A stretch of 64,000 nucleotides of DNA from Terrimonas ferruginea DSM 30193 (GTDB taxonomy: Bacteria; Bacteroidota; Bacteroidia; Chitinophagales; Chitinophagaceae). The notes beneath the pieces are model-generated. The model ran no database searches and had not been told where the DNA came from. It saw only the letters and a program-made list of their open reading frames with translations. The stretch is taken from positions 1 to 64,000 of the forward strand of contig NZ_AUDS01000028.1 in NCBI RefSeq assembly GCF_000425585.1, given 5' to 3'. Below, piece after piece: positions 19,604 to 22,027 of the stretch (within the stretch, counting starts at the first letter, position 1; every line of letters starts with the position of its first letter). Made by a program: the position numbers and the translations under genes.

Positions 19604-19936
19604 CAAAACGGTATACAACCAATGCATTGGTAAAAGCATGGCTTGACCAGCAACATTTGTACAGTGGTAACTCTTATCATTTTTTGTTCAAGCCGGCATT
19701 ACGCTACTGAGCATTTGCAATTATCTTCAACACGGTTTTCAATTAAGCCATTTGAACCGGGTAGTAAGGGACCGAATTCTGTCGGAGCAGAACCGCCAGA
19801 AGAAATGCTTAGAGAAGCTAAATTCAAGAAACAAATTATAAAGTGACGGAACGGCGGAGCAAATACCAGCAAGAGGAAAAAATTTATTCTACCTAAAAAA
19901 GCCTTCATATCCAATGACCTGAAGGCTTTTTTTTAG
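19604..19936. other. Gene-free stretch between the DUF6624 gene and tRNA-Pro(CGG)
   Basis: A 67-codon open frame at 19643-19846 has no recognisable product and no start context, so I do not call it. The stretch ends in a bidirectional terminator at 19895-19934. No transposase fragment or attachment repeat was recognised. Confidence 0.5.
19895..19934 (-). terminator. Bidirectional terminator downstream of tRNA-Pro(CGG)
   Basis: AAAAAAGCCTTCA and TGAAGGCTTTTTTTT form a perfect stem around a 12-base loop. T runs on both strands let it work for the tRNA and for the converging side. Confidence 0.85.
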
Positions 19937-20010
19937 TCGGGATGAATGGATTCGAACCAGCGACTCCTACGTCCCGAACGTAGTGCGCTACCGGGCTGCG
20001 CTACATCCCG
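19937..20010 (-). tRNA. tRNA-Pro (anticodon CGG)
   Basis: 74 bases including the discriminator A; CCA is not encoded. The acceptor stem CGGGATG/CATCCCG is perfect. The anticodon stem CTACG/CGTAG encloses TTCGGGA, giving anticodon CGG. The D arm reads GCGCAGCCCGGTAGCGC. The T stem carries one mismatch. Confidence 0.9.
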
Positions 20011-20023
20011 TTTTCCGGAAAGG

Positions 20024-20031
20024 CAAAGTTA
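20024..20031 (-). promoter_or_regulatory. -7 box (TAACTTTG) of tRNA-Pro(CGG)
   Basis: Exact TAnnTTTG match 13 bp upstream of the tRNA 5' end on the minus strand. Confidence 0.55.
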
Positions 20032-20079
20032 AATAAGTCTATCAAAAATGAAAAAAGTAAGGCCGGCAGATAATACCTC

Positions 20080-20144
20080 GGGATCGAACTAGCGACCCCT
20101 TGCCCCCCATGCAAGTGCCCCGCCAACGGCGGGGCTACGTCCCC
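20080..20144 (-). pseudogene. Degenerate tRNA-Pro fused to the end of GIY-YIG copy 1
   Basis: It keeps the 5' acceptor strand (GGGGACG), the anticodon arm CTTGC/GCAAG with a GGG-type loop and the start of the T arm (GTCGCTAGTTCGA). The 3' T stem and acceptor strand are lost. The D arm is replaced by the hairpin GCCCCGCCGTTGGCGGGGC. The nuclease reading frame runs through it and stops at the TAG inside GTCGCTAG. Confidence 0.75.
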
Positions 20145-20382
20145 GATAATAAGCTTTAAACGCGCTGCCGCCTTTCCAGGATTTAAGCTGTTTTTCTCGC
20201 TTCAGCGCTTCCTGCTTCGTTAAGTAACGCTCCGTCAGTACCAATCGAAACGGTATCCTGTGTTTGGTAGATCGCTGCAACCCCGCATTGTGAAATTTAA
20301 GACGCGCCGCTACATCCGTTGTGTAACCGATGTAATACTTGCTGTCCTTCAGGCTTTGTAAAATGTATATGTGATGAAGCAT
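20089..20382 (-). CDS. GIY-YIG nuclease family protein, copy 1
   Basis: The 97-residue protein is a single-domain GIY-YIG nuclease of the small YhbQ-like class: 'HIYILQS' and 'YYIGYT' supply the signature, with Arg in 'ARLKFHN' and a C-terminal 'KQEALKREKQLKSWKGG' helix. Its final ~20 residues (beginning YYRGRSPAVGG) are translated from the tRNA-like sequence and are probably non-functional. It is ~90% identical to copy 2 over 77 residues. The ATG abuts the T run of a tRNA terminator, leaving no room for a leader. Standalone proteins of this type have no settled function; a homing or mobility role here is inference. Confidence 0.85.
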   Translation of the reverse strand: MLHHIYILQSLKDSKYYIGYTTDVAARLKFHNAGLQRSTKHRIPFRLVLTERYLTKQEALKREKQLKSWKGGSAFKAYYRGRSPAVGGALAWGARGR

Positions 20383-20404
20383 AAAAAAAAGGCCCTAATT
20401 GCTT
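20383..20404 (-). terminator. Duplicated tRNA terminator before GIY-YIG copy 1
   Basis: Same hairpin (AGGCTCTAA, GCAA, TTAGGGCCT, T8) as at 20906-20934. Nuclease copy 1 starts at its last T; the right arm of the stem extends a few bases beyond the end given. Confidence 0.65.
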
Positions 20405-20423
20405 AGAGCCTCTTCCTTATTAG

Positions 20424-20438
20424 TCGGGACGACCAGAT
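20424..20438 (-). pseudogene. 3'-terminal fragment of tRNA-Pro
   Basis: The sequence TCGGGACGAC on the plus strand matches the discriminator and acceptor 3' strand of tRNA-Pro(GGG) exactly. Identity is lost within the T arm. It precedes the terminator and nuclease copy 1 just as the intact tRNA precedes copy 2. Confidence 0.65.
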
Positions 20439-20479
20439 TATCTGCGATGATCTTTGGATGGGGAGGTTCTCAACGAAAG

Positions 20480-20515
20480 CCCAACCGCCAGAGGCGGTTT
20501 GCTTTTTACACGGAT
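20480..20515. other. Hairpin with CCGCCA-GGCGG core
   Basis: AACCGCCAGAGGCGGTT lies within AAAGCcc...gGCTTTTT. It shares the CCGCCAnnGGCGG core with the hairpins that replace the D arms of the two tRNA-like sequences on either side. It could act as a terminator on the plus strand. Confidence 0.45.
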
Positions 20516-20552
20516 CCGCTTACGCGGTCAAGCCCTCGACACGGCTCCATGC

Positions 20553-20585
20553 AAAAAGCCCTTCAACATAGTTGAAGGGCTTTGC
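20553..20585 (-). terminator. Intrinsic terminator after tRNA-like copy 2
   Basis: AAAGCCCTTCAAC and GTTGAAGGGCTTTTT pair perfectly around a 3-base loop on the minus strand. Confidence 0.85.
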
Positions 20586-20590
20586 GTTGG

Positions 20591-20666
20591 TCGGGACGAC
20601 TAGATTCGAACTAGCGACCCCTTGCACCCCATGCAAGTGCCCCGCCAAAGACGGGGCTACGTCCCT
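20591..20666 (-). pseudogene. tRNA-Pro(GGG)-like sequence with altered D arm
   Basis: Six of seven acceptor pairs (GGGACG/CGTCCC), the anticodon arm with loop ATGGGGT, and the T arm are identical to the intact tRNA-Pro(GGG). The D arm is replaced by GCCCCGTCTTTGGCGGGGC, which lacks the normal D-loop layout, so it is unlikely to act as a normal tRNA. It overlaps the last codons of GIY-YIG copy 2, whose stop TAG is the tRNA-like ACGTAG. Confidence 0.75.
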
Positions 20667-20905
20667 GATACTAATTCTTTAAAGGGCCGCCCACCTTTCC
20701 AGGACTTGATTTGTTTTTCACGCTTGAGTGCTTCCTGTTTTGTTAAGTAATGCTCCGTCAGTACCAACCGGAACGGTATCCTGTGTCGGGTAGACCGCTG
20801 CAACCCCGCATTATGAAATTTTAGACGTGCCTCTACATCCGTTGTGTAACCGATGTAATACTTGCTGTCCCTCAGGCTTTGTAAAATGTATATGTGATGA
20901 AGCAT
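20657..20905 (-). CDS. GIY-YIG nuclease family protein, copy 2
   Basis: 82 residues, with the same GIY-YIG signature as copy 1 (Tyr of 'HIYILQ', 'YYIGYT', 'EARLKFHN', 'KQEALKREKQIKSWKGG'). It stops within the first ten bases of the tRNA-like sequence, so its C-terminus ('ELVSGT') is short. Differences from copy 1 are mostly conservative (Lys/Arg, Arg/His, Leu/Ile), indicating that both stayed under selection after duplication or diverged recently. The start codon directly follows the T run of the tRNA-Pro(GGG) terminator. Confidence 0.87.
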   Translation of the reverse strand: MLHHIYILQSLRDSKYYIGYTTDVEARLKFHNAGLQRSTRHRIPFRLVLTEHYLTKQEALKREKQIKSWKGGRPFKELVSGT

Positions 20906-20934
20906 AAAAAAAAGGCCCTAATTGCTTAGAGCCT
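20906..20934 (-). terminator. Terminator of tRNA-Pro(GGG)
   Basis: AGGCTCTAA, loop GCAA, TTAGGGCCT, then eight T residues that run into the ATG of GIY-YIG copy 2 at 20905. Confidence 0.8.
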
Positions 20935-20946
20935 CTTCCTTATTAG

Positions 20947-21020
20947 TCGGGACGACTAGATTCGAACTAGCGACCCCTTGCACCCCATGCAAGTGCGCTA
21001 CCGGGCTGCGCTACGTCCCG
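20947..21020 (-). tRNA. tRNA-Pro (anticodon GGG)
   Basis: 74 bases with discriminator A, no encoded CCA. Acceptor CGGGACG/CGTCCCG is perfect. D arm GCGCAGCCCGGTAGCGC is identical to that of tRNA-Pro(CGG). Anticodon stem CTTGC/GCAAG with loop ATGGGGT gives anticodon GGG. The T arm is well paired. This is the intact member of the cassette family. Confidence 0.92.
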
Positions 21021-21049
21021 AACATTCGACCTTTTCAGGTCAGGGGCAG

Positions 21050-21057
21050 CAAAACTA
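21050..21057 (-). promoter_or_regulatory. -7 box (TAGTTTTG) of tRNA-Pro(GGG)
   Basis: Exact TAnnTTTG match on the minus strand, 29 bp upstream of the tRNA 5' end. The leader contains a short GACC/GGTC hairpin. Confidence 0.5.
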
Positions 21058-21274
21058 ACACTTTTCACCCAAATTGCCCGCATTTTCTTGTTTTTTCTTT
21101 GCTCCTAACCGCCTGACGCTCATGTTGCAGCCGCCTCCTGTTAAGATGCTCATAACATCCCGCCTGTAGACAAGCGTCAGCCGCTTTTGGCACTATTTTG
21201 TTAACCTATTTGGTTACCGTTTGAACCAATCCACTGCTCCCGATTTTTTAACCTCGAAAAATTAAAAGCAGCGT

Positions 21275-22027
21275 ATGAAACGTATCCTGTTAGTTACTCT
21301 CTCTGTTGCCAGTGCAGCTATTATTTTTACCGGATGTCTCAAAGATAAAAATGACAATCCCACCGTGCCTGTTTCCGGCCTCATGGCTTTTAACCTGGCG
21401 CGTGACCAGAATTCGATAGGTTTTGCCTTATCGGGCAGTCCTATCAGCAACACACCGCTGGCGTTTACCAATTACACCGGTGGTTATCTGGGCATTTATA
21501 CCGGCCCGCGCAGTGTAGAAGCCTATGAGTTTTACACCGGTAATACACTCGCAACAGCCAACGCGGAATTCCGCGACAGCCTGTATTATTCCGCATTCCT
21601 GGTAGGTGCCAATGGTACTTACCAAACAGTCATTACCCATGATGCATTCGATTCGCTCGATGCATCCACCGGTAAGGCATTTATCCGTTATATCAATGCC
21701 ATTCCCGATTCTTCCCGCCCTACGGTAACCGTATCGGCAGGTGGCAGCAACGTGATTGATGAGCAGGCCGCCTTTACCAAAGTAAATGGTTTTACGGCTG
21801 CTACGCCCGGTTCCGCTACGATCCGCGTGAGCAATGGCGGTTCCATTAGTAAAGAACGCACGATCACTACCGAAGCGCGCAAACTTTACACCGTATTATT
21901 GTTAGGTAATCCCGGATCAGGAAATGCAGCAGACAGCGTGCAGATCCGATTTGTGGAGAATGGTACACTCGATGCCACACAAGGCAACCGCACCACCACA
22001 CAAGGACGGGCGGCAACTTTTCGTTAA
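21275..22027 (+). CDS. DUF4397-domain lipoprotein
   Basis: 250 residues with a lipoprotein signal (MKRILLVTLSVASAAIIFTGC). The body matches DUF4397 architecture: 'GLMAFNLARDQNSIGFALSG', 'YTGPRSVEAYE', 'YSAFLVGANGTYQTVITHD', 'KAFIRYINAIPDSSRPTVTV'. Such proteins are surface or periplasmic lipoproteins of unknown role. A strong terminator follows, so it is monocistronic. Confidence 0.88.
   Translation: MKRILLVTLSVASAAIIFTGCLKDKNDNPTVPVSGLMAFNLARDQNSIGFALSGSPISNTPLAFTNYTGGYLGIYTGPRSVEAYEFYTGNTLATANAEFRDSLYYSAFLVGANGTYQTVITHDAFDSLDASTGKAFIRYINAIPDSSRPTVTVSAGGSNVIDEQAAFTKVNGFTAATPGSATIRVSNGGSISKERTITTEARKLYTVLLLGNPGSGNAADSVQIRFVENGTLDATQGNRTTTQGRAATFR

Follow-up and report, generated by a model that had tools for sequence, protein, structure and literature searches.

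The closest published analogue of the elements considered here, and the sole close match among the literature matches listed, is SegB, a free-standing GIY-YIG homing endonuclease of the tRNA region of phages T4 and T6 (PMC13096335). According to the sections of that study on SegB, its cleavage peaks lie within tRNA genes in vitro in phage T6, and the enzyme is required for a recombination-dependent tandem amplification of a tRNA-nuclease segment via short repeats (PMC13096335). Relatives of T4/T6 SegB are described there as associated with tRNAs of many isotypes (PMC13096335, PMC2988022), and the intron-encoded GIY-YIG enzymes of phages as catalytic domains fused to DNA-binding domains (PMC2988022). 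We analysed a window of 64,000 nucleotides from the chromosome of Terrimonas ferruginea DSM 30193 (positions 1 to 64,000 of contig NZ_AUDS01000028.1), the minus strand of which (21020-19936) carries two small GIY-YIG nuclease genes (open reading frames ORF1 and ORF2) set among intact and altered copies of a tRNA-Pro gene. Transfer RNA genes are essential and highly conserved, and they would be ideal homing targets only if the host retained a working copy. We read the two units as minimal, isotype-specific, homing-like selfish elements which would use a tRNA gene both as target and as homology and would spare the host by duplicating it, and we put the probability of this reading at about two in three.

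Relatives of the window nucleases are present in 240 of 394 genomes of the window's host family and in 160 of 296 genomes phylum-wide. Their surroundings were surveyed in 112 loci of the host family and in 68 loci from the phylum (28 + 40), drawn non-randomly, by similarity to the window protein, from among the matches listed; L028, L030 and L031 (duplicates or a weak match) were excluded from the counts. Late picks favoured visible tandem arrays over lower-placed matches for about 3 of 20 places (G252, G085, G233) and likewise for six further picks (G629, G684), tRNA presence not being known at the time of choice. A tRNA on the same strand as the nuclease lies within 500 bp in 96 of the family loci, 88 of them having it within 150 bp (median gap 32 bp), and in 46 of the 68 phylum loci (21/28 + 25/40), and the number with an opposite-strand tRNA is zero in both surveys. 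At control spots in these loci, over 1 kb away from the nuclease, tRNAs within 150 bp were absent throughout (0 of 879 and 0 of 220). Homologues on named contigs behave alike in Bacteroidota and Ignavibacteriota, where 10 of 10 have a same-strand tRNA within 500 bp (one has an opposite-strand tRNA too), and a tRNA was nearby in 0 of 9 Bacillota loci. An original prediction, made from the letters of the window, had looked to homologues for this mostly tRNA-flanked state. It had also singled out tRNA-Pro as the target, which does not hold: the nearest tRNAs span up to 17 amino acids, a few labels being neighbours or miscalled copies. Nucleases of the Pro type (E <= 5e-25) occur in 9 of the 394 family genomes, yet one with 68% identity is found in a metagenome-assembled genome of the Bacteroidales. 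Tandem arrays are frequent; they hold from two to five complete units, repeated every 315-450 bp or so. The window genome itself contains six GIY-YIG domain matches, four of which adjoin tRNAs (the two in the window, one at a tRNA-Asp and one at a tRNA-Leu).

A second, altered copy of the nearby tRNA stands beside the nuclease in 79 of the 95 family loci that have a tRNA within 300 bp, as compared with 0 of 464 control segments, so the layout seen in the window is not due to chance. Either side of the nuclease gene can hold the intact copy. Of 98 nuclease stop codons, 78 fall within the tRNA or copy that lies downstream, 19 precede it and one lies beyond it. The tRNA-like end that the original prediction took to be regenerated is not a working tRNA: the far copy is altered, often by a palindromic hairpin. 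Perfect palindromic stems of at least 7 bp are present in 48 of the 79 damaged copies; among the intact tRNAs 5 of 79 have one, and among control windows 86 of 1205. Where two tRNAs were called, the one with the shortest hairpin was taken as the intact reference; the contrast holds in the 64 loci with a single called tRNA (35 damaged copies against 4 intact).

The nucleases are sorted by the isotype of the tRNA that they adjoin. On a tree of 151 nucleases, 125 of them labelled by their nearest tRNA and 26 without a label, 30 changes of the amino-acid label are required, compared with a mean of 77.4 for shuffled labels, and 0 of 200 shuffles were as low; with 40 further loci (41 of 191 rows unlabelled) the figures are 42 and 97.3, for an alignment of 77 columns that leaves many forks unresolved. 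When the closest relative is sought in other genera, it shares the amino-acid isotype for 104 of the 125 nucleases, where 16% would be expected from label frequencies. Lineages cluster in this way for about a dozen amino acids, and within one genome, such as G291 with its Arg(tct), Arg(ccg) and Ser elements, the nucleases group by isotype. Some labels derive from neighbours (L007 'Thr' in the Pro clade, L027 'Gly' among Leu rows, those tRNAs being adjacent in other genomes) and others are calls on altered tRNA copies (L048 'Ile', L051 'Thr'). Such sorting is the pattern that would be expected of target-specific spread.

Comparison of related genomes reveals occupied, empty and decayed sites. 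The clearest case is tRNA-Arg(TCT), where a query that covered the palindrome-bearing copy rather than the intact tRNA found a match in every one of the 12 genomes belonging to one genus: four sites are occupied, one has a truncated nuclease, six lack the nuclease domain (two of these with remnants, as read by eye) and one is uninformative. Among these genomes, G238 and G687 share 83% identity over 1376 bp up to the start of the tRNA-Arg gene, at which point G238 has an additional 432 bp comprising the damaged tRNA copy and the nuclease. Searches with tRNA-Pro gave matches in 17 of 19 genomes (the window's included) at 41 places, of which 30 loci were fetched, and none of the 28 from other genomes has a nuclease within the fetched stretch, three being shortened by contig ends. 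Among them, G001, which belongs to the window's genus, has an identical tRNA-Pro(GGG) and no nuclease, and G004 has a GGG-CGG tRNA-Pro pair 128 bp apart with nothing in between. Five loci have an empty tRNA-Ser(GCT)-tRNA-Pro(TGG) pair, and four others (L032, L033, L038, L068) have nucleases at such a pair. Thus the empty tRNA sites sought by the original prediction do exist, with synteny at tRNA-Arg(TCT); for the window's own tRNA-Pro site the empty counterparts are non-syntenic or micro-syntenic, and comparison of its flanking genes gave nothing usable. The alternative by which that prediction would have fallen, a simple tandem duplication lacking any empty site, was not borne out, as both empty sites and isotype-matched lineages were found. 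L008 and L041 (probably one contig, each 7467 bp) hold a frameshifted, stop-containing nuclease of the Pro type between two tRNA-Pro(CGG) calls, a decaying element.

In the window, the minus-strand order proposed originally, from tRNA-Pro(GGG) through two GIY-YIG units to tRNA-Pro(CGG), was confirmed by ARAGORN, Rfam, Pfam and alignment (Table 1). The units had been said to be offset by 522-523 bp, and the two ORFs indeed start 523 bp apart; each begins where the T run of a hairpin ends (that of 20904..20945 stops at the start codon of ORF1) and, as also proposed, stops within tRNA-like sequence. The first tRNA-Pro-like body is an altered copy that ARAGORN still calls as a tRNA; it folds as a cloverleaf at -37.2 kcal/mol, and its damage consists in the replacement of the D arm rather than in scattered decay. 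An 8-bp hairpin has taken the place of the D arm in both damaged copies, and one like the GCCCCG..CGGGGC of copy 1 is present in most of the Pro-type relatives displayed. The 17-nt fragment is the sole recognisable remainder of the upstream tRNA of unit 2. The terminators of the earlier description are terminator-type hairpins by their folds (z = -6.2 and -5.8), whereas a strict terminator scan called none on the minus strand of the tRNA-Pro locus, probably because, to judge from the folds, an A-rich flank pairs into the T run. Three tRNAs alone scored above the Rfam gathering threshold in 19700-21300, and intron families are absent from the six cmscan matches at E <= 1 in that interval; the ORFs are free-standing, with no group I intron fold. 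The two longest ORFs between the intact tRNA-Pro genes are the GIY-YIG ORFs, none exceeding 97 residues, and no tyrosine or serine integrase was found, the Pfam scan having covered the two nuclease ORFs and the remaining ORFs being of at most 58 residues. Just upstream of tRNA-Pro(CGG) lies a weak promoter-like box, TAACTTTG, of the consensus TAnnTTTG; the locus holds 3 matches, where chance alone would give 2.9.

Table 1. Features of the tRNA-Pro locus in the window, listed in minus-strand order.
Feature	Coordinates	Strand	Evidence
Intact tRNA-Pro(GGG), left edge of unit 1	20946..21020	-	ARAGORN; Rfam 59.3 bits
Terminator-type hairpin, 42 nt, in the gap between tRNA-Pro(GGG) and ORF1	20904..20945	-	fold z = -6.2; sequence
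GIY-YIG nuclease ORF1, 82 aa	20657..20905	-	PF01541 61.5 bits; AlphaFold mean pLDDT 95.4
tRNA-Pro-like copy 1, GGG anticodon retained, long hairpin in place of D arm	20588..20666	-	ARAGORN; Rfam 42.1 bits
Palindromic hairpin GCCCCG..CGGGGC, D arm of copy 1	20639..20657	-	sequence; fold
Terminator-type hairpin 3' of copy 1	20546..20588	-	fold z = -5.8
tRNA-Pro 3' fragment, 17 nt	20423..20439	-	local alignment to tRNA positions 59-75
Second 42-nt terminator-type hairpin	20381..20422	-	sequence and fold; letter-for-letter the same as 20904..20945
GIY-YIG nuclease ORF2, 97 aa, runs into tRNA-like copy 2	20089..20382	-	PF01541 57.4 bits
tRNA-Pro-like copy 2 (tRNA positions 2-59), degenerate, 3' end gone, D-arm hairpin retained	20084..20143	-	alignment; fold
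Palindromic hairpin GCCCCGCC..GGCGGGGC, D arm of copy 2	20117..20135	-	sequence; fold
Intact tRNA-Pro(CGG), right edge	19936..20010	-	ARAGORN; Rfam 56.6 bits

The proteins of ORF1 and ORF2 match PF01541 (GIY-YIG) alone in Pfam, and NCBIfam gave no match. In an alignment of 24 nucleases Y6, Y17, G19, R27 and H31 are invariant and E63 is nearly so, and the AlphaFold model of the 82-residue nuclease is a single compact domain predicted with high confidence (mean predicted local distance difference test score, pLDDT, of 95.4). The closest solved proteins by sequence and fold are of the UPF0213 type, followed by Slx1 (1zg2, 1ywl and Slx1), with I-TevI farther away; 1zg2 is both a profile match at E = 5e-17 and the top Foldseek match. 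By sequence and model, then, the nuclease resembles structure-specific nucleases more than it does I-TevI. Over the domain ORF1 and ORF2 differ by 19 synonymous and 9 non-synonymous changes (dS 0.52, dN 0.05, dN/dS 0.10), from which we judge them to be an old pair, both maintained functional by purifying selection and therefore not a recent passive duplication. Tandem neighbours, when pooled, have a pN/pS of 0.18. A phage origin was considered and set aside, as just two weak Staphylococcus aureus phage records match (45.6% identity).

The palindromes recur in characteristic positions. Five loci share a clean insertion of a 20-nt palindrome into tRNA-Arg(TCT) at position 22|23, the tRNA-Asp copies bear six different perfect stems at almost one spot just 3' of the anticodon, and the D arm of Pro copies has usually given way to a GCCCCGCC..GGCGGGGC-type stem. 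We make no claim that loops are targeted, since, of 15 distinct insertion sites, 5 are strictly internal to stems, as against about 49% expected. Compared with the remainder of the same loci, which had been chosen for the nuclease, the sequence within 200 bp of that gene is enriched in seven palindrome families: six of them by 6 to 34 times and one by 20 copies to 0 (a ratio of 212 set by the pseudocount). The notion that the palindromes are exclusive to the elements was rejected, because copies are dispersed through the genomes far from nucleases. Of 12 genomes searched for CCTGCCTGCCGGCAGGCAGG, 9 have 2-12 copies each, 8 of the 12 having been picked for a known copy or near variant near a nuclease, and 13 of 18 loci fetched around such copies are without a nuclease; the TCCCGA..TCGGGA palindrome has 1-66 copies per genome in 10 genomes. 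Some copies of CCTGCCTGCCGGCAGGCAGG are clustered, with 8 in 32 kb at G014:C2:1200428-1232703 and 7 in 40 kb at G233:C1:927269-967294, and some 360 bp from one G233 copy (L157) there is a weaker match to the GIY-YIG domain. In the window genome (G000) TCCCGA(N3-9)TCGGGA occurs 66 times, as against once for the reversed control, and constitutes a palindrome family like the repetitive extragenic palindromes (REPs). On the minus strand of L225 (~1600-2100) and L050 (~580-940) there are arrays of tRNA-like copies and fragments, some with palindromes, and no nuclease gene between; these are perhaps deletion derivatives.

A further group of relatives lies in or beside other conserved genes and is bounded by inverted repeats. 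Arms of at least 8 bp flank 16 of 31 relatives without a called tRNA, compared with 21 of 139 that are tRNA-linked, and the genes in or beside which this type is found are those for RNase P RNA, tyrosine recombinases, a dTDP-glucose-dehydratase-like protein (with its start duplicated) and a sigma-factor-like protein, the protein names being a reading of translations rather than the outcome of a family search. In L277 (G462:C1:1049336-1052572) a GIY-YIG gene with 24-bp inverted repeats lies at about 1470-1760, at the 5' part of the RNase P RNA (Rfam RF00010, 197 bits from 1730), and sequence that would pair with the 3' end is found upstream of it, such that the GIY-YIG gene appears to interrupt the RNase P RNA gene. 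L265, L279, L191, L169, L074 and L253 have GIY-YIG genes with CACCCCGT..ACGGGGTG-kind inverted repeats in tyrosine-recombinase-like genes, several at conserved motifs. In L280 and L284 a truncated start of the dTDP-glucose-dehydratase-like gene is followed by the GIY-YIG gene and then by the gene itself, a duplicated target as at tRNAs, and the break point in L280 makes a CGGGATTTATCCCG palindrome.

On our preferred reading, a unit would be a single small gene for a GIY-YIG nuclease, flanked on each side by a copy of the tRNA gene that the enzyme targets. The nuclease would break, or otherwise make recombinogenic, tRNA genes of its own isotype, and repair off an element-bearing donor via the flanking tRNA copies would then convert the site to tRNA-nuclease-tRNA', with one intact, working tRNA left. 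Recurrent events at a single locus would build tandem arrays, which the amplification driven by SegB makes plausible for a chromosome by analogy, and the spare tRNA copy would decay or acquire a palindromic hairpin, and the element would finally be lost. Cleavage of tRNA-gene DNA, recombinational transfer and whatever part the hairpin plays are inferred steps of this scheme, and several points weigh against it. No separate DNA-binding module is present in the 82-residue nuclease, either as a Pfam match beside PF01541 or as a second domain of the AlphaFold model, and the recognition of one particular tRNA gene is hard to account for in nucleases of that kind. The intact tRNA is the same in occupied and empty genomes both at tRNA-Pro (G000 and G001) and at tRNA-Arg (G238 and G687), which implies that it is a poor target or that cleavage is rare, and which leaves immunity to cleavage through a changed intact tRNA unsupported. 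There is no called tRNA within 500 bp in 16 of the 112 family loci and 22 of the 68 phylum loci; some of these lie at contig ends (for 6 of the 16, a truncated locus ends no more than 200 bp away), some have tRNA-like copies that ARAGORN missed and others are of the inverted-repeat-bounded type. A host signal remains on the enlarged tree (44 changes of host family against 68.2 when shuffled), and in two tandem pairs, with few changes, dN/dS is near 0.7.

Passive tandem duplication, in which unequal crossing-over makes and degrades copies of a house-keeping nuclease within tRNA operons with no mobility at all, would explain why regular arrays are common, why both window units carry an identical 42-nt hairpin and why there are also some nuclease-free arrays of tRNA copies. 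We nevertheless regard it as unlikely, and already weakened by the syntenic empty sites, given also the patchy occurrence of the family and especially of the Pro type, the nuclease lineages that track isotype across genera and families, the age and constraint of the window pair, and the presence of the same enzymes within protein genes and apparently in RNase P RNA. The RNA-level explanation, that the nuclease or its transcript acts on tRNA in a toxin or surveillance system with the second copy as decoy, antidote or processing signal, could draw on the stop codons that fall within the downstream tRNA or copy, on the cloverleaf still formed by copy 1 and on isotype specificity, with which RNA recognition is compatible too. 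It strikes us as very improbable, because many second copies are broken or short of an arm, because there are relatives within protein genes that have no neighbouring tRNA, and because GIY-YIG enzymes are, to our knowledge, DNA nucleases.

The foremost of the alternatives, although improbable as a complete account, is an element driven by hairpins, in which a UPF0213/Slx1-like nuclease acts on tRNA arms or palindromes and the palindrome is a substrate rather than a scar. RAYT transposases, which act on REP hairpins, offer a parallel. Besides the kinship of the enzyme by sequence and fold, this explanation would accommodate the excess of stems in damaged copies over intact tRNAs and controls, the enrichment of seven palindrome families near the nuclease, the six stems at almost one spot in tRNA-Asp copies and even the dispersal of palindromes in the genomes. 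It leaves isotype specificity without an obvious explanation, and it has to contend with the 31 of 79 copies that lack a stem of at least 7 bp, with insertions that are not significantly confined to loops and with palindromes far from any nuclease. For the manner of DNA recognition alone, a hairpin-directed, Slx1-like mode is the main rival.

Taken together, the tRNA-parasitising nuclease genes look like an undescribed class of minimal selfish element that lives off essential genes; among the best-ranked open-access matches, which included few subscription journals and no bioRxiv, none was found to describe GIY-YIG elements associated with tRNAs on the chromosomes of Bacteroidota. A wider version of this proposal, to which we give slightly less than even odds, would be a phylum-wide class of Bacteroidota mini-elements with a bare Slx1-like GIY-YIG domain and isotype-specific lineages, each duplicating one tRNA gene so that one copy stays functional and the other bears a hairpin and is either cleavage-proof or a substrate; the same family would split other conserved genes such as that for RNase P RNA by means of terminal inverted repeats, as part of a general, splicing-free strategy for entering essential genes. 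The layout suggests an intron-free way to spare the host, namely a duplicated target. If the elements do home, they would amount to tRNA-gene-specific nucleases made from a single domain of 80 residues and a natural series on how small GIY-YIG enzymes find their sites. Unusual tRNA calls in the annotation of Bacteroidota genomes, and C-terminal tails derived from tRNA sequence, may likewise have their origin in these elements.

The minimal GIY-YIG domain of the elements is shared in sequence and fold with UPF0213 (the YhbQ/YazA type) and Slx1, nucleases that we do not know to be mobile; the nine Bacillota homologue loci differ from the window in having no tRNA nearby. With RAYT/REPtron systems and Rickettsia palindromic elements, in which dispersed short palindromes are concentrated beside a small nuclease or transposase gene, the likeness lies in that arrangement, whereas the two nuclease ORFs of the window match GIY-YIG rather than the Y1 HUH transposase that REP hairpins flank in a REPtron, and the palindromes sit in a spare tRNA copy. 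Unlike the tRNA-attached integrative elements described in PMC9897764, a unit of the window type measures about 315-520 bp, too short for an integrase, and its second tRNA copy is often near full length with an internal hairpin. Enzymes of the Seg/I-TevI type share with those of the window the conserved GIY-YIG residues and the free-standing state, but not the absence of DNA-binding modules; the occupied, empty and decayed alleles typical of them were observed at tRNA-Arg(TCT) in one genus, the window's own site excepted. SegB itself is likewise a GIY-YIG enzyme encoded outside introns and beside tRNA genes. It belongs to a phage genome, whereas the window enzyme is a bare domain of 82 residues on a bacterial chromosome, and the sections on SegB in PMC13096335 describe neither isotype-by-isotype lineages nor a hairpin-damaged tRNA copy. 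The elements of the window may offer a chromosomal counterpart of the SegB-driven amplification of phage tRNA genes.

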